Origin: Methanomassiliicoccales archaeon PtaU1.Bin124
GTDB lineage: Archaea > Thermoplasmatota > Thermoplasmata > Methanomassiliicoccales > UBA472
Length of the DNA: 40,087 nt
Reading direction: 5' to 3'
NCBI GenBank assembly: GCA_002067865.1
Contig: MVRC01000003.1
Span: 1-40,087 of the forward strand
Program-made: the position numbers and the translations under genes
The notes under the pieces: generated by a model
What the model saw: only the letters and a program-made list of their open reading frames with translations
What the model was told of the DNA's origin: nothing
Databases searched by the model: none
Shown: piece after piece, positions 14,645-32,162 of the stretch
How positions within the stretch are numbered: the first letter of the stretch is position 1
Layout of the letters: each line of letters opens with the position of its first letter

Positions 14645-14747
14645 GGGCCTGTAGCTCAGCTAGGTAGGACGTCTGGCAACAGATCTCCCTAGAAAGAGCA
14701 TCTGGCTTTTAACCAGGTGGTCAGGGGTTCGAATCCCCTCAGGCCCG
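14645..14747 (+). tRNA. tRNA-Lys (anticodon UUU) with a D-loop intron
   Basis: The gene spans 103 bases. The acceptor stem GGGCCTG pairs with CAGGCCC, followed by discriminator G at 14747; no CCA is encoded. The anticodon stem TCTGG/CCAGG encloses the loop CTTTTAA with anticodon TTT. The T arm AGGGG-TTCGAAT-CCCCT is perfect. Removing 29 bases (predicted intron 14666-14694) leaves a standard 74-base tRNA with D stem GCTC/GAGC and D-loop AGCTAGGTA. Without this removal the D-loop would be 38 bases long. The discriminator, anticodon and T arm all fit tRNA-Lys. Confidence 0.92.
14666..14694 (+). other. Predicted tRNA intron in the D-loop, between positions 20 and 21
   Basis: A bulge-helix-bulge fold can be drawn. 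The central 4-bp helix pairs CTAG (14660-14663) with CTAG (14689-14692). The 5' bulge is GTA (14664-14666) and the 3' bulge AAA (14693-14695). The intron hairpin has GGA/TCC, one C-C mismatch and GTCTG/CAGAT around a GCAA tetraloop. Cutting after the second base of each bulge releases exactly 29 bases and restores a normal D-loop. The outer helix is interrupted by two unpaired bases before the D stem, as in relaxed BHB motifs. Not the common 37/38 position. Confidence 0.75.
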
Positions 14748-14868: not shown

Positions 14869-15129
14869 TTGGTCGAGACACCCCAGATTAACGTATTAGA
14901 GCACAATCTCGTGCCCGAACATCGTTTGTTGTCGAAGGAGGAGGCAGAGCAGGTCCTTGCCAAGCTTAGGATTACTAAGGACCAGCTGCCGAAGATCAGG
15001 AAGGGGGACGCGTGCATTCGCGTGCTCGAGAAGATCTATGGCAACATCGAGGAAGGGAGCATCATTCAGATCACTAGGAAGAGCAAGACCGCCGAGGTCG
15101 CGGTCGCTTATCGATTGGTCAGAGGGTGA
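14869..15129 (+). CDS. rpoH: DNA-directed RNA polymerase subunit H (Rpb5 homologue)
   Basis: RpoH forms part of the jaw of archaeal RNA polymerase. The 86-residue protein contains [35 protein letters not shown] and [10 protein letters not shown], the hallmark of the C-terminal Rpb5 domain. It starts with TTG, supported by GGAGAGGTGA a few bases upstream. The stop overlaps the rpoB start (GTGA), so the operon is translationally coupled. Confidence 0.95.
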
Positions 15130-18100
15130 GATTTTTGAGGGATCTAGTCGAACTTTATTTCAAGGACAGGAGCATCGTCAACCACCACATATCCAGCTTC
15201 AATGATTTCCTATCCACCCTGGACAACCCCAACAGCCGCATGCAGAAGATCGTGGACAATCTCCGCGTCTCCGCTGAGGACATGGACAGGGGCATAATCC
15301 GCCTGGACAAGGACAAGACCGACGGCAGGATCGTGGAGATCCGGGTCGGCAGGCGGAGGGACGAGAAGACCGGAGGTATCGACCAAGGCGCCAAGCCCTC
15401 CGTTCACGTCAAGCTGCCAGAGACCCGCGAAGCGAACGGTTACGTACACGAACTGACCCCGATGGAGGCCAGGTTGCGCAATCTGAACTACCTCGCCCCG
15501 GTCTATCTGGAGTTCACTGTCATCGAAGATGGCATCGAAAAGGAGCCGGAGGCCGTGCACATAGGCGACCTGCCCATCATGGTCAAGTCCAAGAAGTGTA
15601 ACCTCTACAAGGAGAACCAGGAGGAGGAGAGGGAGCTCTCCGACGAGGAGTATAACCGTGTCCTGCAGAAGCGGGGAGAGGACCCCATGGACCCGGGCGG
15701 CTACTTCATCATCGGCGGCACCGAGCGCGTGCTCATCACCCTGGAGGACCTGGCCCCGAACCGTGTCATGGTCGAGTTCAACGAGCGCTACGGCACCAAG
15801 CTGGAAGTCGCCAAGGTCTTCTCACAGAAGGAAGGCCACCGCGCCCTCACCTTGGTCGAGAAGAAGAGGGACGGCGTCCTCATGGTCACCGTTCCGGCAG
15901 CTTCCGGCCAGATTCCGTTGGTCGCATTGATGAAGGCCCTGGGAATGGAGAACGACCAGGAGATCTTCGAGGCCATCGCCTCCGATCAGCGCATGAACAA
16001 CATCGTCTATGCCAACATCGAGGAGATCCAGGACAAGAAGGTCTATCCTCCAAACGGCATATTCACCACCAACGACGCCATCGCCTACCTGGAGCGCAAG
16101 TTCGCCACCGGCCAGGCGAAGGAATACCGTGTCAAGAAGGTCGAGTCGATCATCGACCGCTCTCTCCTGCCGCACCTCGGGGACACCTCTGAGGACCGCA
16201 TGAAGAAGGCGATCTTCCTCGGACGTATCGCCCGCTCCGTTCTGGAACTATCCATGGGGATGCGCAACGAGGACGACAAGGACCACTACGCCAACAAGCG
16301 CTTGAAGCTCGCTGGCGACCTCATGGAGGACCTGTTCCGCGTGGCCTTCACCAACCTGATGAAGGACCTGAAGTACCAGCTGGAGAGGTCCTATGCCAGG
16401 AAGAAGGACTTGCGCATCGGCAGCGCCATCAGGCCTGACCTGATGACCCACCGCCTGCTGCACGCTCTGGCCACCGGAAACTGGGTCGGCGGAAGGGCGG
16501 GCGTCAGCCAACTGCTGGACCGCACCTCGAACATGTCCACCCTGTCGCACCTGCGCCGCGTCACCTCCTCCCTCACGAGGAGCCAGCCTCACTTCGAGGC
16601 TCGTGACCTGCACCCCACCCAGTGGGGCCGCTTGTGCCCGAACGAGACCCCAGAAGGTCAGAACTGCGGTCTGGTCAAGAACGCCGCATTGATCATCGAC
16701 GTCTCCGAGGGATTCCGCGAGGAGGACGTCACCTATCTGTTGAAGGACCTCGGCGTAAAGGAGGTCAAGGGCCAGCAGAAGTCTGGCACCCGTGTCTACG
16801 TGAACGGGGACCTGAAGGGCGTGCACGAGAAGGCGAAAGACCTGGTCATCGAGATGCGCCAGCGCCGCCGCTCTGGACTGCTGTCCCACGAGATCAACAT
16901 CCGCTATGACGAGGACATGGACGAGGTCATCATCAACTGCGACGAGGGCCGCCTGCGCCGCCCCCTGCTCGTCACCAATGATGGCAAGGTCGTCATGACC
17001 CGCAAGCACCTCGAGGAGATGCGCGAAGGCAAGGTCCACTGGAACGACCTCATCCGCGAGGGTGTGCTGGAATGGATCGACGCCGAGGAAGAGGAGGATG
17101 CATATATTGCGGTGGAGCCCTACGAGGTTCCGGACCGCTGTGACAAGTGCGAGCGCGCACTGTCCCCGCTAGACGTCGACTGGATGAACCCCGGGTCCAA
17201 TGACAAGAACGTCCAGTTGCGCTGCAAGCACTGCAACCAGATGATCACCACCAAGACCCTGATCACCAAGGAGCACACCCACATGGAAGTGGACCCGATG
17301 TGCATCCTCGGTGTCTGTTCTGGACTGGTCCCATACCCGGAGCACAATTCGTCTCCGCGTGTCACCATGGGAGCAGGTATGGCCAAGCAGTCCCTCGGTC
17401 TGGCATCGAGCAATTACCGCATGAGGCCCGATACCCGGGGTCACATCCTGCACTACCCGCAGAAGCCGATGGTGCAGACCAAGACCATGGACTTCGTGGC
17501 CTTCAACAAGCGGCCTGCCGGGCAGAACTTCTGCGTGGCGGTCCTTTCCTTCCATGGCTTCAACATGGAAGATGCCCTGATCCTCAACAAGGCCAGCATC
17601 GAGCGCGGCCTGGGCCGGTCCACCTTCATGAGGACCTACCGTGCTGAGGAGAGGCGCTACCCCGGTGGCCAGGAGGACCACTTCGAGATCCCGCAGCCCG
17701 ATGTCCGCGGTGCCCGCCAGGACCAGGCCTATGTCAACCTGGACCAGGACGACGGTCTTATCTCCCCGGAGATAGCGGTCACGGGCGGCGACGTCCTGAT
17801 CGGCAAGACCTCCCCGCCCAGGTTCCTGGAGGAGGACGTCGGCGACTTCCTGTCCGTACAGAAGCGCCGTGAGACCTCCGTGACCTGCCGCGCCGGCGAG
17901 ACCGGTTGGGTCGACAGCGTAATGCTGACCGAGTCCGAGAACGGTTCCCGCCTCGTCAAGGTCCGCGTGCGTGACGAGCGCATTCCCGAGCTGGGCGATA
18001 AGTTCGCTTCCAGGCACGGACAGAAGGGCGTGGTCGGTCTGATCTGCCCGTCCGAGGACATGCCGTTCACATCTGAAGGCATCGTGCCAGACCTGGTCGT

Positions 18101-18730
18101 CAACCCCCACGGTATCCCGTCCCGTATGACCGTCGCGCATATCTTGGAGATGATCGGCGGCAAGGTCGGCTGCATGGAGGCGCGCCACATCGACGGCACG
18201 CCGTTCAGCGGCGAGAGGGAGGAGGCCATCCGTGAGGAGCTAATCAGCGCCGGGTTCATGCACTCTGGCCGTGAGGTCATGTACGATGGCCAGACCGGCA
18301 AGAAGATCGAGGCCGACATATTCACTGGCTGCATCTATTACCAGAAGTTGCACCACATGGTGTCCGGCAAGATGCACGTCCGTTCCCGCGGCCCCGTGCA
18401 GATACTCACCCGCCAGCCGACCGAGGGTCGTTCCAGGCAGGGTGGTCTGAGGTTCGGTGAGATGGAACGTGACTGTTTGATCGGTCACGGCGCCGCGATG
18501 GTCATCAAGGACCGTCTGCTGGACGAGTCCGATGGTACCTTCCAGTACGTCTGCGGCAACCCGAACTGCGGCCACATAGCCATATTGGACCGCCGCGGCT
18601 CTCTGCGCTGCCCCGTCTGCGGTAACAACACGAACGTGCACCTGGTGCAGACCTCCTATGCGTTCAAGCTGCTCCTGGATGAGCTGCTGTCGCTGGGTGT
18701 GGCCATGAGGTTGCAACTGGAGGACTTGAG

Positions 18731-18734
<4 letters not shown>
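15126..18734 (+). CDS. rpoB: DNA-directed RNA polymerase subunit B, unsplit
   Basis: This 1202-residue chain is the second-largest subunit and forms one side of the active-site cleft. In many methanogens the subunit is split into B'' and B'; here it is one continuous protein, as in Thermoplasmata and Crenarchaeota. Key features include the [22 protein letters not shown] region near residues 436-454 and the Zn-binding cysteines CDKC...CKHC near 673-700. Further on come the [15 protein letters not shown]-type loop ([15 protein letters not shown]) near 955-970, GIPSRMT and a C-terminal zinc ribbon with CGNPNCG and CPVCG. It starts with GTG overlapping rpoH; a TTG at 15135 is an alternative. Confidence 0.97.
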
Positions 18735-23251
<4,517 letters not shown>

Positions 23252-25652: not shown

Positions 25653-28600
25653 ATGGCATCAAAAGTGAGCGGGTCCGACACCCCGACCGGAAAGAAGGAT
25701 GCTGGTACTTCCTTGGCCAAGAGGATGAAATCGTCCTGGCTGGGTAAGAATTGGCAGACAGCCTTCGTTCTGGTCATGATCATATTGCTGGCCTTCTTCG
25801 TACGGGCGTATTTCGCATACGGCCTGTCCGTAGACAACGGCTTCCTGGTTTCGGGAGGCAGCGACTCTTACTATCACCTTCAGGTGATCAACCATGTGAC
25901 CAGCACCGGACAGCACCTTGTTTCAGACCCGATGCTTAACTATCCCTGGGGCATCAGGAACGCAAGGCCTCCCCTGTATGACTGGTCCGTGGCGGTCAGC
26001 GGTATGACCCTAGATGGGCTGGGCTTCACCATCGAAGATGGAATAGGCTACTCCCTGGTCTACTCGACGGCCTTCTGGGGCGCTCTGACCATCATCCCCG
26101 TGTTCCTCATCGGCAATGCCGTGTTCGGCCGTCGCGCCGGGCTGTTGGCAGGATTCCTCATCGCCCTCATGCCTGGGCACATCGAGAAGACCGTCCTGTC
26201 CAACGCTGACCATGATGCCATGGTCCTGTTCTTCGTGGCGTTCTCGTTCTACTTCTTCCTGCGTTCGTTGCAGACCATAAAAGGTTCCAAGTGGGTCGGT
26301 AGTTGGTCCAAGCCCAGGGAGATCAAGACCGGGCTGGCGAAGTACTTCAAGGAGAACCAGATCTCACAGCTCTATGCCGCTTTAGCAGGGGTCTGCGTAG
26401 GCGCCGTGGCCATGATATGGACCGGTTACGTCTACATCCTCATCATCATCCTGGTCTATTACATCGTCCAGCTTCTGATAGACCGGTTCCGCAATGCCGA
26501 TTCCTTCGGCATCGTGGGCAGCATGTTCACCATGTGGGCCGTGGCCTTCCTGGTCATGTTGCCGGTGTACTACCAGATGAACTATATTTCGACCTGGTAC
26601 GACATGCCGGTCATACTGTTCCTGATCGGAATAGTGGGCGGCCTGTTGTTCTGCGTGACCAGGGACTATCCCTGGGTCATCATCCTTCCGACCATCGCCG
26701 CAATTACCATCGTGGCGCTGGTGGCGGTGTTCTTCCTGGCACCGTCGATATTCAACGCGGTCATGTCTGGCCAAGGTTACCTGGTGAAGAGCAACCTGTA
26801 CTCCACCATCTCTGAGGCGCAGGCCCCGGCGTTCTCCACGCTGGTCATGTCGTTCGGTGCATTATCGTTCTGGCTGGCCATAATCGGTATCGGTTATGCG
26901 GCGATCAAGATCCCCAAGACCATCAGCCCGTACTTCACCTTCGTGGTGGTATGGGGCGCCGTCTCTGTCTACATGGCATCCGCCGCGGCCCGTTTCCTGT
27001 TCAACGCCGCTCCGGCCATCGCCGTGCTGGCGGGATGGATACTGGCTTTGATCATCGGCTGGGTGAAGTACGAGGACTGGTTCAAGGCCCTCCTGCCGAC
27101 GTTCAAGACGCCCAAGGTGTTCTTCCGCAGGCTGCTGTCTTTCAAGGTCGTCATCGTGACGGTCCTGCTGGCACTGCTGCTCCTGCTGCCCAATGTCTGG
27201 ACCTCGCTGGATGCAGCCATCCCCTACGAGGAGAAGACCACCTACGACAAGCAGATCTACGAGGCCATGCCCAGCTTCCTGCGTCCTTCGGACTATGATC
27301 TGAAGAACGGCACATACTGGTACTTGGGCGGCTTCTCATACAGCCTGGAGGACTCCAGCAAATATTGGCCAGCGGCCTGGGCCTGGTTCGCCAATAGGGA
27401 TGCCAACGAATCCAATACGGACAAACCGGCGTTCCTGTCCTGGTGGGACTATGGTTTCGAGGCAGCGGAGGAAGGAAAGCACCCGACGGTGGCCGATAAC
27501 TTCCAGAACGGCTACAAGATGTCTGGTTCCTTCATATGCGCTCAGAACGAGTCCTGGGGCATATCAATCATCATGCTCCAGATCCTGAGCAAGGTCAACT
27601 ACGACGAGAGCAAGGGCCTCGGCGACTACAGCGCCGTCTGGCAGGCCCTGGACAGCAACAACATCAGCTCGGCAGCGGTGAAGGAGATCATCCGGAACCC
27701 TGGCCAGTACACCTCGTTCGTCCTGGCCCACCCGGAGATATTCGGCACTTACGCCACTGACCTGGACGCCGAGAACACCGCCTACGCCATGATCGGTTAC
27801 GAGATGAGCAAGGCCGGAGAGGAGTCCATCGTGAACGCCTACCATGAGGTGAGGCAGCTGACCGGTTACGACATCGGCTACTTCGCCATCGACGGCAGAT
27901 TGTTCCCGTTCTCCGCGTACACGTCCAACATCTTCTACGCGCCGGTGAAGCTGTCCGACCATAGGGTCAACCCCTCCACGAGCGACCCGACCGACTTCTA
28001 TGTCATCTACGCGGTCGACGGTTCCGGCAATCAGTATGAGCTGGACCAGATCCCCAGCGGTACGAGCATCTCCTACTACACCATCGACTACAAGGACATG
28101 TTCTACAACTGCCTCCTCTACAAGGCCTTCATGGGATTCAGCCCTGCTGACCTGGGCCTGACCGAGGACGGCATCCCGGGAATATCCGGCAGCCTGGCCA
28201 ATTACGACCCGATGCCTGCCTGGAACATGACCCACTTCCGTGAGGTGTACCGCACCGCCTACTACAACCCGTACGGCAGCAGCGATCTCTCCAACCACTC
28301 CAATGCCTGGACCGCCATCAGCTATGAGCAGGCCCTCTATTACGAGGAACAGATCAAGGCAGGAAAGATGAACGGCACAGTGGACTACAGCGCTTCCTCG
28401 ATGGTGAGCGGCGTCGTGTTCATCCAGTACTATGATGGCGCGCTCATCGAAGGCTACGCCACCAATGAACAGGGACAGGCCATGGCGGGGATATGGGTCA
28501 CTGTGAAGGATGAGTATGGCACGCCCCACGGCGTGACCAAGACCGATTCGACCGGCCACTACTCCATCCTCGCTCCGTTCGGTGAGGTGAACGTCACCTT

Positions 28601-31600
28601 CTCGTATGGTAACCTGACCCTGCTGACGCAGACCGGCACCCTGATCGACTACGTGCACTACAACATAACATATGCTCAGGCAATGCGCCTGGACACTGCC
28701 GCCACGACCTCCAAGACCGTATCGGCCAGTGCCGAGGCGGACCCGAACTGGATCATCAATGGAACGGTCGTCCTGAAGGACGGCAGCATCTATGGCAAGG
28801 TCTTCATCGACGCTGATGGGGACGGAACCTTTGATGTCGGCACGGATACCTTGCTGGAGAACGCCACGGTCAAGTACACGGATGCCACCACCGGCATCAC
28901 CAGGACCGTGACCGCCTATGCTGGCACGTACTATATCACCAACGTGACCCCGACCTCCACTGCCAAGCTGATCACCACCTACAACGGCCACACCGTCTCC
29001 ACCAAGAACGTCACGGTGGAGAAGGGCAAGAACAAGACCGTGGCGATCACGGTCAAGCCGGCCACCATCACCGAGACGCTGACATACCCAAGCGGGATCG
29101 CGGCGCCCGGCCTCAAGGTCGACCTGCTCGACAAGACCAACGGCCAGATAATAACCAAGACCACCGATTCCAACGGCAAGGTATCGTTCACGAACCTGTT
29201 GCCAGGCAACTATACTCTAAGCATGAACGATACCGCCCTGACGCTGGGCGACAAACAGTATGCGCTCACCGCCGGCAAGACCGTCACCGAGACCAACATC
29301 GTCTATGACGCCATGGTGGTCCATGGAACGGTTAGGGTGTGGGGAGGTCCAGTACCTTATGCCCGCATCGGTTTCAGCAACGTTTACGGCATCACATGGG
29401 TCGTGGCTGACGGCGCTGGCAAGTACAGCGCCAACATCGGGCTGCTGAACTACACAGTCTACACCATCGCCGTGATGAGCGGAGTGGAGTATGTGTCCCT
29501 GAACTCCGTCACCGGAGGAGGCAGTGTGGCCCTGGACATCGATGTGACCGCAGGTGTCGTGATGGACGGCTATGTCAAATACAACAATGCCACCGTTTCA
29601 GGCGCCAGCGTTCTTATCAAGGCCGCGGACGGCACAAGCCTGTCCGGAGTATCGAACTCCGCAGGCAAGTTCCGCTTCGTGGTCCCGGCTGGAACATACA
29701 ACGTCTATGCCATCAAGTCCAATCACGTGTTCTGGGGCCAGATGACCGCCGGAACGGGTAACATCACCCTGACCGACGGGCTGACCATCGATGTGAACGT
29801 GTGGAGCGATCAGGACTTCGACGGCGCAGTGGATGTCACGTCGGAGTACATGAAGAGCGTGACCGTCATCTTGACGACGGACGGCGGCAAGACCGTGACC
29901 ACCCTGACCAACAGCGGTGGCAACGTGACGCTGGCCGTGCCGAAGTACACCAACTGCACCATGCAGTTCATCGCCAAGGGCTATGACCCGGTAACGCTGA
30001 CCTTCACGAACATCACCGCTAACCAGACCAAGGTCGTCCAGATGATCGGTTCCGTCCGGAACATCACCGGGAACGTGGCCCAGCTGGGAGGATCTTCACT
30101 CTCTGGCATCGTCATCAACTTCGTGGCGAACAGCAAGGGAGCGGTGAACGCGACCGTCACGTCCGATGTGAACGGTAACTACTTCGTGCAGCTGCGCCCG
30201 GGCAGGTACATCATCAACATCGCCCAGAACATCACGCTGAACGATAACAGCAGCCAGTACCAGACCGTCGCGACCAACTATGTGAACGTCACCGCTGGCC
30301 AGGACCCGGCGGTCCACAACATCAACATCGTGATCCGCTACCATGTCAACGGAACGATCGGCCCTGTGGCCGGTAACCTGCGCATCGGCTACCCTGGTCC
30401 AGAGTCATACGTCAAGTCGGGGGCGGTCAGCTATAGCACCTATCTGCAGGCTGGCAACTACTGCCTCTACTGCACCGACTCGAGCGGATACGCGGTGCTC
30501 ACCTGGTTGAACATCACGGCCGCCACCACCTACAACGTCAACATGGCCCCGGCCAACCGCATCGATATCGATGCTCGGTACACCGGCGTGGCGATCCTGC
30601 AGGTCCTGAACATCCAGGTCTACAATTCGACCACCCTGGCCATCGTCAACCTGACCAGCAACGTGGCAGGCACCGTCAGCATCTATCTGCCCGCCGGCGC
30701 CTACAACGCCACTGTGTCGTTCAAGACGTTGGACACGATCGCTGGCTATTCCAGCAAGAAGTATGTGGTCTACAGCGGCCTGATCGGGTTCAAGTCCGAC
30801 CTGCTGAAGAAGAACGTGCAATTGCCGATGACCCTGTCGTTGAACAACGCCACCGTGGCCGGCCTGCCCGCAGGCAACTATCACTTCGTGGCCCTGACCA
30901 GCACTGCCATCAACGCCGATCTGGCCGTCTCTGGCAGCATTGCACTGGCGCCAGGCAACTACAGCGTCTATGCCATCGACGGCGGCAACAACGTGTTCTT
31001 CGGCCTCATGACCGTCCTGCCGAATGTGATCAATGCGCCCAGCGTCGTACTGTCCCCGGGCAACTTGGTCAGCGGCACCGTGACCCTGAACGGGGTCGGC
31101 ACGGCAGCCACCGTGACCATCGTGAAGGGCGCTGCGACGTACAATGTGACAGCGTCGGCCGGCGGGGCCTATTCCGTCTATCTGCCCAGCGGTGTTTACA
31201 ACCTGACCGCTTCAACCAATGTTCCTGACCTCGGTGTCAACGTTACATACTCTGCCACTAAGATGGTGGTCGTCAGCAGCGCAGCGACCGTGGACCTCGC
31301 CCTGACCCGTGACACCACCTATGGAGCAAAGCTCGAATGGGACGGGGTGGAGCAGACCGTGGAACAGGGCCAGACCGCAGCATACACCGTTAGGGTGCGC
31401 AACACCGGTTCGGTCAAGGACAACTACACGCTGTCCTGCACTGCCACCGGATGGAACATCACCTTCTCGACCAGCACCATCGCGAACCTCACCTATGGTG
31501 CGAACGGCTACTATGACGTGACCGTCTATCTCACGCCTGGAAGCACCATCATGGTGGACCACACCAAGTTGACCCTGAAGGTCACCTCCACCGGTGGGGC

Positions 31601-32162
31601 TAGCGACAAGATATTCATCGATGCCGAGATCGTGGCCAAGGAGTCGGTCAACATAACGTACGGGTCGGCCGTGTCGCAGACGAACACCAGCCATGTCTAC
31701 AACGTGATCGTCTCCAACACCGGCACAGTGAGCGACGTCTACAACATCACCGTCGACAACCTGGCGGAACTGAACGAGGCAGGATGGAACGTCACCATCC
31801 GCGCCGGCACCTCTGGCTCGTACTCCGAGTCCTTGGTGAACCAGACCGTCCGGGCGGGAAAGAACCTGACCGTGCAGATCTCGATGGTCGCCACCAGGTC
31901 CAACCCGAGCACCTCCGTAACGGTGAGGATGACCGCGGTGTCCACCACGAACGCCTCGTGCACATCGTCGGTATCGTTCGCTCCGCCGTTCGCGACTCTG
32001 GATGTGCCTGACAACGGGCTGTCCGCCAGCGGTTCGGGGATATCCCTGAAGTTGCCGGACATACCGGTCGAGACCTATCTGGCCCTAGGACTTGTGGGTA
32101 TCCTGGCCGTGCTTACTATCTTCTTCATGTTCAAGAAGGGGGTGTTAGGACGAAGAAAGTGA
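25653..32162 (+). CDS. aglB: AglB/STT3 oligosaccharyltransferase with giant extracellular repeat tail
   Basis: AglB transfers the lipid-linked glycan to asparagine in N-x-S/T sequons outside the membrane. The N-terminal part has about a dozen transmembrane helices. The acidic residue of the first DxD-like motif is near D71 (GGSDSYYH), the second motif DHD at 186-188 (SNADHDA), and the signature WWDYG at 597-601. AglB/STT3 proteins are usually about 600-1000 residues; this one has 2169. From about residue 930 to 2130 it carries a series of beta-sandwich repeats of the carboxypeptidase-regulatory/SdrD type (for example DSTGHYSILAPFGEVNVTF and DSNGKVSFTNLLPGNYTL). Two calcium-loop-like stretches (DADGDGTFD, DQDFDGAVD) and CARDB/NEW3-like modules with many sequons follow. 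A final transmembrane helix (LALGLVGILAVLTIFFMF) and FKKG..GRRK tail end it. Confidence 0.95.
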   Translation: MASKVSGSDTPTGKKDAGTSLAKRMKSSWLGKNWQTAFVLVMIILLAFFVRAYFAYGLSVDNGFLVSGGSDSYYHLQVINHVTSTGQHLVSDPMLNYPWGIRNARPPLYDWSVAVSGMTLDGLGFTIEDGIGYSLVYSTAFWGALTIIPVFLIGNAVFGRRAGLLAGFLIALMPGHIEKTVLSNADHDAMVLFFVAFSFYFFLRSLQTIKGSKWVGSWSKPREIKTGLAKYFKENQISQLYAALAGVCVGAVAMIWTGYVYILIIILVYYIVQLLIDRFRNADSFGIVGSMFTMWAVAFLVMLPVYYQMNYISTWYDMPVILFLIGIVGGLLFCVTRDYPWVIILPTIAAITIVALVAVFFLAPSIFNAVMSGQGYLVKSNLYSTISEAQAPAFSTLVMSFGALSFWLAIIGIGYAAIKIPKTISPYFTFVVVWGAVSVYMASAAARFLFNAAPAIAVLAGWILALIIGWVKYEDWFKALLPTFKTPKVFFRRLLSFKVVIVTVLLALLLLLPNVWTSLDAAIPYEEKTTYDKQIYEAMPSFLRPSDYDLKNGTYWYLGGFSYSLEDSSKYWPAAWAWFANRDANESNTDKPAFLSWWDYGFEAAEEGKHPTVADNFQNGYKMSGSFICAQNESWGISIIMLQILSKVNYDESKGLGDYSAVWQALDSNNISSAAVKEIIRNPGQYTSFVLAHPEIFGTYATDLDAENTAYAMIGYEMSKAGEESIVNAYHEVRQLTGYDIGYFAIDGRLFPFSAYTSNIFYAPVKLSDHRVNPSTSDPTDFYVIYAVDGSGNQYELDQIPSGTSISYYTIDYKDMFYNCLLYKAFMGFSPADLGLTEDGIPGISGSLANYDPMPAWNMTHFREVYRTAYYNPYGSSDLSNHSNAWTAISYEQALYYEEQIKAGKMNGTVDYSASSMVSGVVFIQYYDGALIEGYATNEQGQAMAGIWVTVKDEYGTPHGVTKTDSTGHYSILAPFGEVNVTFSYGNLTLLTQTGTLIDYVHYNITYAQAMRLDTAATTSKTVSASAEADPNWIINGTVVLKDGSIYGKVFIDADGDGTFDVGTDTLLENATVKYTDATTGITRTVTAYAGTYYITNVTPTSTAKLITTYNGHTVSTKNVTVEKGKNKTVAITVKPATITETLTYPSGIAAPGLKVDLLDKTNGQIITKTTDSNGKVSFTNLLPGNYTLSMNDTALTLGDKQYALTAGKTVTETNIVYDAMVVHGTVRVWGGPVPYARIGFSNVYGITWVVADGAGKYSANIGLLNYTVYTIAVMSGVEYVSLNSVTGGGSVALDIDVTAGVVMDGYVKYNNATVSGASVLIKAADGTSLSGVSNSAGKFRFVVPAGTYNVYAIKSNHVFWGQMTAGTGNITLTDGLTIDVNVWSDQDFDGAVDVTSEYMKSVTVILTTDGGKTVTTLTNSGGNVTLAVPKYTNCTMQFIAKGYDPVTLTFTNITANQTKVVQMIGSVRNITGNVAQLGGSSLSGIVINFVANSKGAVNATVTSDVNGNYFVQLRPGRYIINIAQNITLNDNSSQYQTVATNYVNVTAGQDPAVHNINIVIRYHVNGTIGPVAGNLRIGYPGPESYVKSGAVSYSTYLQAGNYCLYCTDSSGYAVLTWLNITAATTYNVNMAPANRIDIDARYTGVAILQVLNIQVYNSTTLAIVNLTSNVAGTVSIYLPAGAYNATVSFKTLDTIAGYSSKKYVVYSGLIGFKSDLLKKNVQLPMTLSLNNATVAGLPAGNYHFVALTSTAINADLAVSGSIALAPGNYSVYAIDGGNNVFFGLMTVLPNVINAPSVVLSPGNLVSGTVTLNGVGTAATVTIVKGAATYNVTASAGGAYSVYLPSGVYNLTASTNVPDLGVNVTYSATKMVVVSSAATVDLALTRDTTYGAKLEWDGVEQTVEQGQTAAYTVRVRNTGSVKDNYTLSCTATGWNITFSTSTIANLTYGANGYYDVTVYLTPGSTIMVDHTKLTLKVTSTGGASDKIFIDAEIVAKESVNITYGSAVSQTNTSHVYNVIVSNTGTVSDVYNITVDNLAELNEAGWNVTIRAGTSGSYSESLVNQTVRAGKNLTVQISMVATRSNPSTSVTVRMTAVSTTNASCTSSVSFAPPFATLDVPDNGLSASGSGISLKLPDIPVETYLALGLVGILAVLTIFFMFKKGVLGRRK

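Follow-up and report, generated by a model that had tools for sequence, protein, structure and literature searches.

A non-canonical D-loop intron in the tRNA-Lys(UUU) gene of a Methanomassiliicoccales archaeon and its relatives in Thermoplasmatota

Results

An interrupted tRNA-Lys(UUU) gene

The window, the whole stretch of 40,087 nucleotides analysed here, is contig C3 of the genome of Methanomassiliicoccales archaeon PtaU1.Bin124 (2.2 Mb, 18 contigs, 99.8% complete, 4.2% contamination). Positions 14645-14747 of its forward strand hold a tRNA-Lys(UUU) gene, matched over its full length by the Rfam tRNA model (62.3 bits, E = 2.5 × 10−11), with 35 nt in the D-loop left outside the model. No tRNA was called at 14645-14747 by ARAGORN in default mode; its intron mode reported tRNA-Lys(ttt) with a 29-nt intron, and the gene was called as a normal tRNA-Lys(ttt) once these 29 nt had been removed in silico. 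A first-pass annotation had described an otherwise perfect tRNA-Lys(UUU) with a 29-base insertion between D-loop positions 20 and 21, to be checked with an intron-aware predictor, and the Rfam model, ARAGORN intron mode and intronless orthologues all agree with that description, everything outside the insert being intact. ARAGORN itself drew the intron in the anticodon loop, leaving a badly paired D-stem; this placement was rejected in favour of 20/21, because the empty site in orthologues and the splicing motif put the junction there.

Exon 1 (14645-14665, forward strand, as for all features below) comprises the 5′ acceptor strand (14645-14651), the D-stem strand GCUC (14654-14657) and the residues from A14 to U20. 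It is followed by the 29-nt intron (14666-14694) and by exon 2 (14695-14747), with A21, the D-stem strand GAGC (14696-14699), the anticodon UUU (14708-14710), the T-arm, the 3′ acceptor strand (14740-14746) and the discriminator G14747. The acceptor stem reads GGGCCUG/CAGGCCC and the T-loop UUCGAAU. Within the precursor, the exon strand CUAG (14660-14663) can form a 4-bp central helix with the intron strand CUAG (14689-14692), flanked by the bulge GUA at the 5′ splice site (14664-14666) and by AAA at the 3′ splice site (14693-14695). Between them the intron forms a hairpin, GGA-c-GUCUG-GCAA-CAGAU-c-UCC (14667-14688), closed by a GCAA tetraloop. The predicted cuts lie at U14665/A14666 and A14694/A14695: with each triplet cut after its second base, 14666-14694 (29 nt) is removed and 74 nt are left. 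The spliced D-loop reads AGCUAGGU-A-GAGC, which is the D-loop of the intronless orthologues. The earlier proposal that cutting both bulges at the same position restores a 74-base tRNA is thus in accord with ARAGORN, which calls the spliced product tRNA-Lys(ttt).

The fold differs in one respect from the bulge-helix-bulge (BHB) first suggested. The CUAG/CUAG helix, the GUA and AAA triplets and the GCAA hairpin are all present, but A14-G15 face the 3′ AAA, so that the 3′ site is a 2×3 internal loop and not a strict bulge, and the motif is a bulge-helix-loop (BHL). Unlike in the strict hBHBh′ motif, the outer helix is accordingly not directly adjacent at the 3′ site, which weighs against splicing; the 3-nt bulge, 4-bp central helix and 2×3 internal loop correspond to a relaxed BHB, or BHL, motif. 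The folding z-score of the precursor is −4.1. For the isolated precursor the minimum-free-energy structure differs from the splice-competent fold, which also weighs against splicing, while the centroid structure shows it. Its position away from 37/38 and the normal tRNA left after its removal are as expected of a non-canonical, EndA-type archaeal tRNA intron. Self-splicing group I introns of tRNA genes carry a ribozyme core of about 200 nt; this intron has 29 nt, and the tRNA is the sole Rfam match in the window.

A conserved neighbour begins downstream, at 14893-14922; from the 10-residue motif at its start we take it to be rpoH, and it is followed by rpoB and rpoA, identified by domain matches. 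RNA polymerase subunit A is encoded by two overlapping open reading frames (18731-21517 and 21514-22980), the archaeal A′ and A″, with Rpb1 domain 5 divided between them. Further on, the frame at 25653-32162 encodes 2,169 amino acids with an STT3 oligosaccharyl transferase domain and six carboxypeptidase-regulatory-like stretches.

Distribution of the D-loop intron

A BLAST search of the gene against 40 relatives, read base by base, gave an identical junction for five of the order's six families. In the remaining family, f2, the tRNA-Lys(UUU) is uninterrupted, with a D-loop exactly like that of the spliced window tRNA; this family is probably Methanomethylophilaceae, and its genome G030 is presumably Candidatus Methanoplasma termitum. 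The comparison with the same tRNA in related genomes, which the first-pass annotation had advised, therefore gave an identical junction wherever an intron was present and, in intronless relatives, the absence of exactly the intron.

Searching the named GTDB collection with an exact pattern recovered 83 loci, and the titles of the 80 listed among them were Methanomassiliicoccales, Thermoplasmata, Thermoplasmatota, Euryarchaeota or similarly named archaea. Conservation of the GG and CCCUAG letters in this set is by construction, because the search pattern fixes them; the BLAST set, which is not biased in this way, shows the same letters. A covariance model of the D-arm separated intron-bearing matches of about 60 nt (at least 49 bits) from intronless matches of 33 nt (at most 39 bits). 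With this model, 112 of 201 genomes of the class, from 20 families, were positive, and no D-loop intron was found in six families of the class (f2, f9, f15, f18, f24 and f28). Family f15 includes a genome that we take to be Aciduliprofundum boonei, and a genome of f18 is presumably Thermoplasma volcanium. The intron is thus missing from those members of the phylum that have been studied most, and this may explain how it escaped notice.

Outside the class, the D-loop intron was present in at least nine families (f32, f34, f35, f37, f43, f45, f47, f50 and f52). In three loci of families f32 and f45, which belong to other classes (L211, L212 and L220), D-loop introns reach about 60 nt, with splice-site letters nearly unchanged. 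The rpoH start motif was found downstream of the interrupted gene in 81 fetched loci, a count made with a fixed motif that may miss others and that includes a few genomes twice, fetched by two routes. Judged by these sequence comparisons, the tRNA-Lys D-loop intron appears to be orthologous and widespread in the phylum, rather than an oddity of a single genome.

Covariation and conservation of the splice sites

Seventy-seven distinct introns of 27-41 nt share the junction. In all of them (77/77) the 5′ triplet is GTA, GTT or GTC and the 3′ triplet AAA or AGA. The first two pairs of the inner stem are invariant G-C, and pairs 4-6 swap among many standard pairs. In an alignment of 26 sequences, 92.5% of the cells were paired versus 33-45% in slid controls, and 42 both-side changes were counted versus 15.0 in shuffles and 9-18 in slid controls. 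Within the close set the exon does not change, and the central helix is accordingly invariant. Farther relatives show compensatory changes, the exon strand AUAG being matched by CUAU in the intron (L229) and CCGG by CCGG (L224 and L225); these changes provide what we regard as the strongest evidence for a selected exon-intron pairing. Strong support for the predicted intron fold comes from this comparison of 77 introns with covarying stems, rather than from the z-score. A chance insertion, an assembly error or a pseudogene as the source of the insert was rejected in view of the conservation and covariation.

The same data bear on how the intron came to be so widespread. Its presence is patchy, other archaea are known to have introns at 20/21 (PMC4090602), and the resolution of the EndA tree is too poor to order gains and losses, all of which would suit repeated gain at one site without inheritance from a common ancestor. 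We consider this unlikely, since the 77 introns share not only the junction but also GUN/ARA splice-site letters and a GG-CC stem base, and in 81 loci the orthologous gene that carries them lies upstream of rpoH. Shared ancestry would be the simplest reading, because gene, site and signals are all identical.

An intron that is spliced could also owe its persistence to a second function, as a guide RNA, a regulator or a shield against integrating elements. Persistence across some 30 families, with an invariant junction and two invariant G-C stem pairs, might be taken in that sense, but beyond the splicing signals and the stem neither sequence nor length is conserved in the 77-intron set, and several families show no trace of the intron; we regard such a function as improbable.

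Additional introns in tRNA-Lys and tRNA-Cys

In almost all close relatives tRNA-Lys(UUU) has a second intron, at position 59/60 of the T-loop, a site that is empty in the window gene (14733-14734). This intron has a strict BHB, in which UUCG pairs with CGAA (or CGGA) to form the central helix, the bulges are AAN and NNT, and the T-stem serves as the outer helix. It has probably been lost in the window species, as both of its genus mates carry it. Rule-based splicing in silico of 98 loci produced a recognisable tRNA-Lys(UUU) from 55 genes with D-loop and T-loop introns, 21 with D-loop, anticodon-loop and T-loop introns, five with the D-loop intron only and five with none. Among the interrupted genes, 81 of 93 were called tRNA-Lys(UUU) by ARAGORN after splicing; the other 12, mostly with a miscut anticodon intron or at a contig end, were unconfirmed and are excluded from the support.

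The tRNA-Cys(GCA) gene of the window genome (C7:21697-21790, L032) has its own 23-nt D-loop intron, also in a strict BHB: the central helix is of the AGCG/CGCU type, one bulge is GYA and the other has three nucleotides (AAA or AUA, for example), and the D-stem abuts the motif directly. All four central pairs are formed in 21 of 27 distinct tRNA-Cys sequences, and L198, with AGUG/CACU, displays a compensatory change. Most relatives keep this intron; it is absent in family f2.

Anticodon-loop introns were seen in three further tRNA genes of the window genome: C15:162263-162361 (L043), which we read as tRNA-Ser(GGA) and ARAGORN as Ala; tRNA-Tyr(GUA) at C11:168872-168982 (L039); and a probable elongator tRNA-Met at C15:120509-120617 (L029), whose motif could not be drawn cleanly.

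Expected requirement for the interrupted gene

The first-pass annotation had named a second, intronless tRNA-Lys(UUU), coupled with a lack of spliced RNA, as a finding that would speak against it. No such second gene was found among the 43 tRNA matches in the genome, in which the other lysine gene is an uninterrupted Lys(CUU) (L003). A tRNA with a C34 anticodon is not expected to read AAA, and the interrupted tRNA-Lys(UUU), serving this rare codon, should therefore have to function. Three long reading frames of the window (15126-18734, 18731-21517 and 25653-32162) contain 8 AAA versus 211 AAG lysine codons.

Such a low demand for tRNA-Lys(UUU) would fit an insert that is retained, either as a long D-loop hairpin in the mature tRNA or in a pseudogene with AAA read by another tRNA. 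The only other tRNA-Lys is nonetheless the C34 species, and everything outside the insert is intact. Moreover, the junction stays the same even though the loop varies and the stems covary, intronless orthologues are exactly the spliced product, and many relatives carry two or three inserts, those in the T-loop being of a kind that should block a normal elbow. Retention of the insert is, in our judgement, very improbable indeed, and splicing is the reading followed below.

No obvious Trp(CCA), Thr(CGU), Arg(UCU), Leu(GAG) or Leu(UAG) gene was present among the 43 tRNA matches, and more heavily interrupted tRNA genes may be hidden in this genome.

Putative splicing enzymes

The genome encodes both the splicing endonuclease EndA and the ligase RtcB (E = 2.7 × 10−184). 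EndA is a single chain of 350 amino acids (C10:29424-30473; L044:727-1779), in which the N- and C-domain models PF02778 and PF01974 each match twice. Its AF2 model has a pLDDT of 87. Both in sequence and in AF2 fold, the closest solved structure is the Methanopyrus kandleri subunit fusion 5x89 (E = 5 × 10−41, TM 0.85), the next-best fold match being Archaeoglobus fulgidus. Domain content and predicted fold point to a fused homodimeric α′2-type enzyme, with a pseudo-catalytic and a catalytic unit in one chain.

The hallmarks of broad-specificity EndA, a CSL/ASL loop with a conserved Lys near the active site, were not seen, which weighs against splicing. There is no insertion at the CSL position of the A. 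fulgidus chimera 3p1y, none of loop size in the catalytic unit relative to M. jannaschii 1a79, and, in the EndA of relatives, nothing inserted between FYG and LQLSLIE. The intronless families f18 and f15 have shorter EndAs (open frames of 304 and 299 amino acids, respectively); f2, also intronless, keeps the long form, so that EndA length alone is no predictor of introns. In the N-terminal, pseudo-catalytic unit of the long Thermoplasmatota EndAs, a VFPRGGTP-like loop (residues ~104-112 in the window genome) contains a PRG that never varies and that is absent from the A. fulgidus alignment; this loop is a candidate specificity element.

The imperfect outer helix had originally been taken to mean that processing may need an endonuclease of relaxed specificity. 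The imperfection stands, with A14-G15 facing AAA; a specially relaxed enzyme may not be required, because BHL motifs are reportedly cleaved by homodimeric EndAs and the EndA of this genome is without CSL/ASL. The cited papers disagree on how homodimeric EndA handles this motif: homodimeric and heterotetrameric forms are described as cleaving BHL-like motifs (PMC8707768), and the A. fulgidus α′2 enzyme as excising 37/38 BHL introns from full-length pre-tRNA (PMC6379350), while relaxed BHB cleavage is credited to the (αβ)2 and ε2 forms (PMC6379350) and Korarchaeum was named in 2014 as the sole α2 archaeon with non-canonical introns (PMC4033280).

The tRNA-Lys genes of Methanomassiliicoccus luminyensis

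Borrel et al. found no tRNA-Lys in M. luminyensis and suggested that it lay in the ~17 kb of missing sequence of their assembly of 26 contigs and 2,620,233 bp (PMC4153887). Our M. luminyensis B10 genome (G328) has exactly 26 contigs totalling 2,620,233 bp and is therefore the same assembly. In it, Lys(UUU) lies on C20 and is interrupted by introns in both the D-loop and the T-loop (L233, L265); Lys(CUU), on C26, has its intron in the T-loop (L273). On this assembly the Rfam tRNA model missed Lys(UUU) and scored Lys(CUU) below threshold. ARAGORN named 38 of the other 40 tRNA matches, none of them Lys, although it can mislabel intron-bearing genes; the remaining two are a tRNA-Cys with a D-loop intron and an unnamed fragment. 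A D-loop intron in the Lys(CUU) of this family was considered and rejected, since the weak model matches proved to be tRNA-Cys and Lys(CUU) is interrupted in the T-loop instead. M. luminyensis B10 thus has both tRNA-Lys genes; earlier detection failed because non-canonical introns interrupt both. This corrects a published gap and warns that standard tRNA finders can overlook essential genes in a large environmental archaeal group.

Discussion

Taken together, our results make us highly confident that the 29-nt insertion is a genuine protein-spliced archaeal tRNA intron, cut by EndA, joined by RtcB and inherited within Thermoplasmatota. From known pathways we infer that, in the folded pre-tRNA, the CUAG of the exon forms a helix with the intron CUAG that immediately precedes the 3′ site, that the fused homodimer-type EndA of this genome cleaves after the second nucleotide of the GUA bulge and of the AAA loop, and that RtcB ligates U20 to A21, giving a normal 74-nt tRNA-Lys(UUU). 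The intron would be an old feature of the Thermoplasmatota tRNA-Lys(UUU) gene upstream of rpoH, presumably lost from the D-loop in several families, with its T-loop partner probably lost in the window species. The non-canonical 20/21 intron that the first-pass annotation had placed in Thermoplasmatota is borne out, with two refinements: it is apparently one orthologous intron shared across the phylum, joined in relatives by introns in the T-loop and the anticodon loop, and it possibly needs no special enzyme.

According to reviews, those Euryarchaeota whose EndA is homodimeric or homotetrameric have single canonical introns, and non-canonical introns go with broad-specificity EndA bearing a CSL/ASL loop (PMC4090602, PMC4033280, PMC6379350). 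We give an even chance to a broader proposal, that the non-canonical tRNA introns of Thermoplasmatota (at Lys 20/21, at Lys 59/60 and in the Cys D-loop, with as many as three in one gene) are an ancient set, and that a fused homodimeric EndA without CSL/ASL processes them, acquisition of the loop being no precondition. If this is true, the rule of loop-intron co-evolution needs either an exception or a new specificity element, for example the conserved FPRGGTP loop of the N-terminal unit. With an apparently inherited D- and T-loop intron set alongside a loop-less fused EndA, the enzyme-intron rule becomes testable in cultured M. luminyensis, and the clade offers a natural test of whether homodimeric EndA handles the BHL motif.

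A search of mostly open-access literature found no description of such introns in Thermoplasmatota, though an earlier listing, for instance in a tRNA database, is possible; the phylum-wide set is apparently undescribed so far, while the kind of intron is known. Its distribution is unexpectedly deep and its probable enzyme partner atypical. Position, motif, length and three introns per gene are all known from Crenarchaeota (PMC4090602, PMC8450103), and 20/21 and 59/60 are listed non-canonical sites in Thermoproteales and other Crenarchaeota (PMC4090602). The introns described here resemble those in their sites, shortness, BHB or relaxed motifs and number of up to three per gene, but they occur in Thermoplasmatota, in one orthologous gene across many families, and alongside a fused homodimer-type EndA, whereas the crenarchaeal enzyme is a CSL-bearing (αβ)2.

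Canonical 37/38 archaeal introns share the motif logic and the enzymes; the present intron differs in its D-loop position and in a 3′ site lying in a 2×3 internal loop. Korarchaeum cryptofilum likewise combines a homodimer-type (α2) EndA with non-canonical introns (PMC4033280), but its enzyme is said to carry a specific loop that is missing here. Methanopyrus kandleri and Methanothermobacter are euryarchaeal precedents for multiple or relaxed introns (PMC4033280), and the M. kandleri EndA, the nearest solved structure, is likewise without CSL/ASL; it is nevertheless built from separate α and β subunits where the enzyme here is a single chain, and those introns belong to single species, whereas the set described here is phylum-wide.
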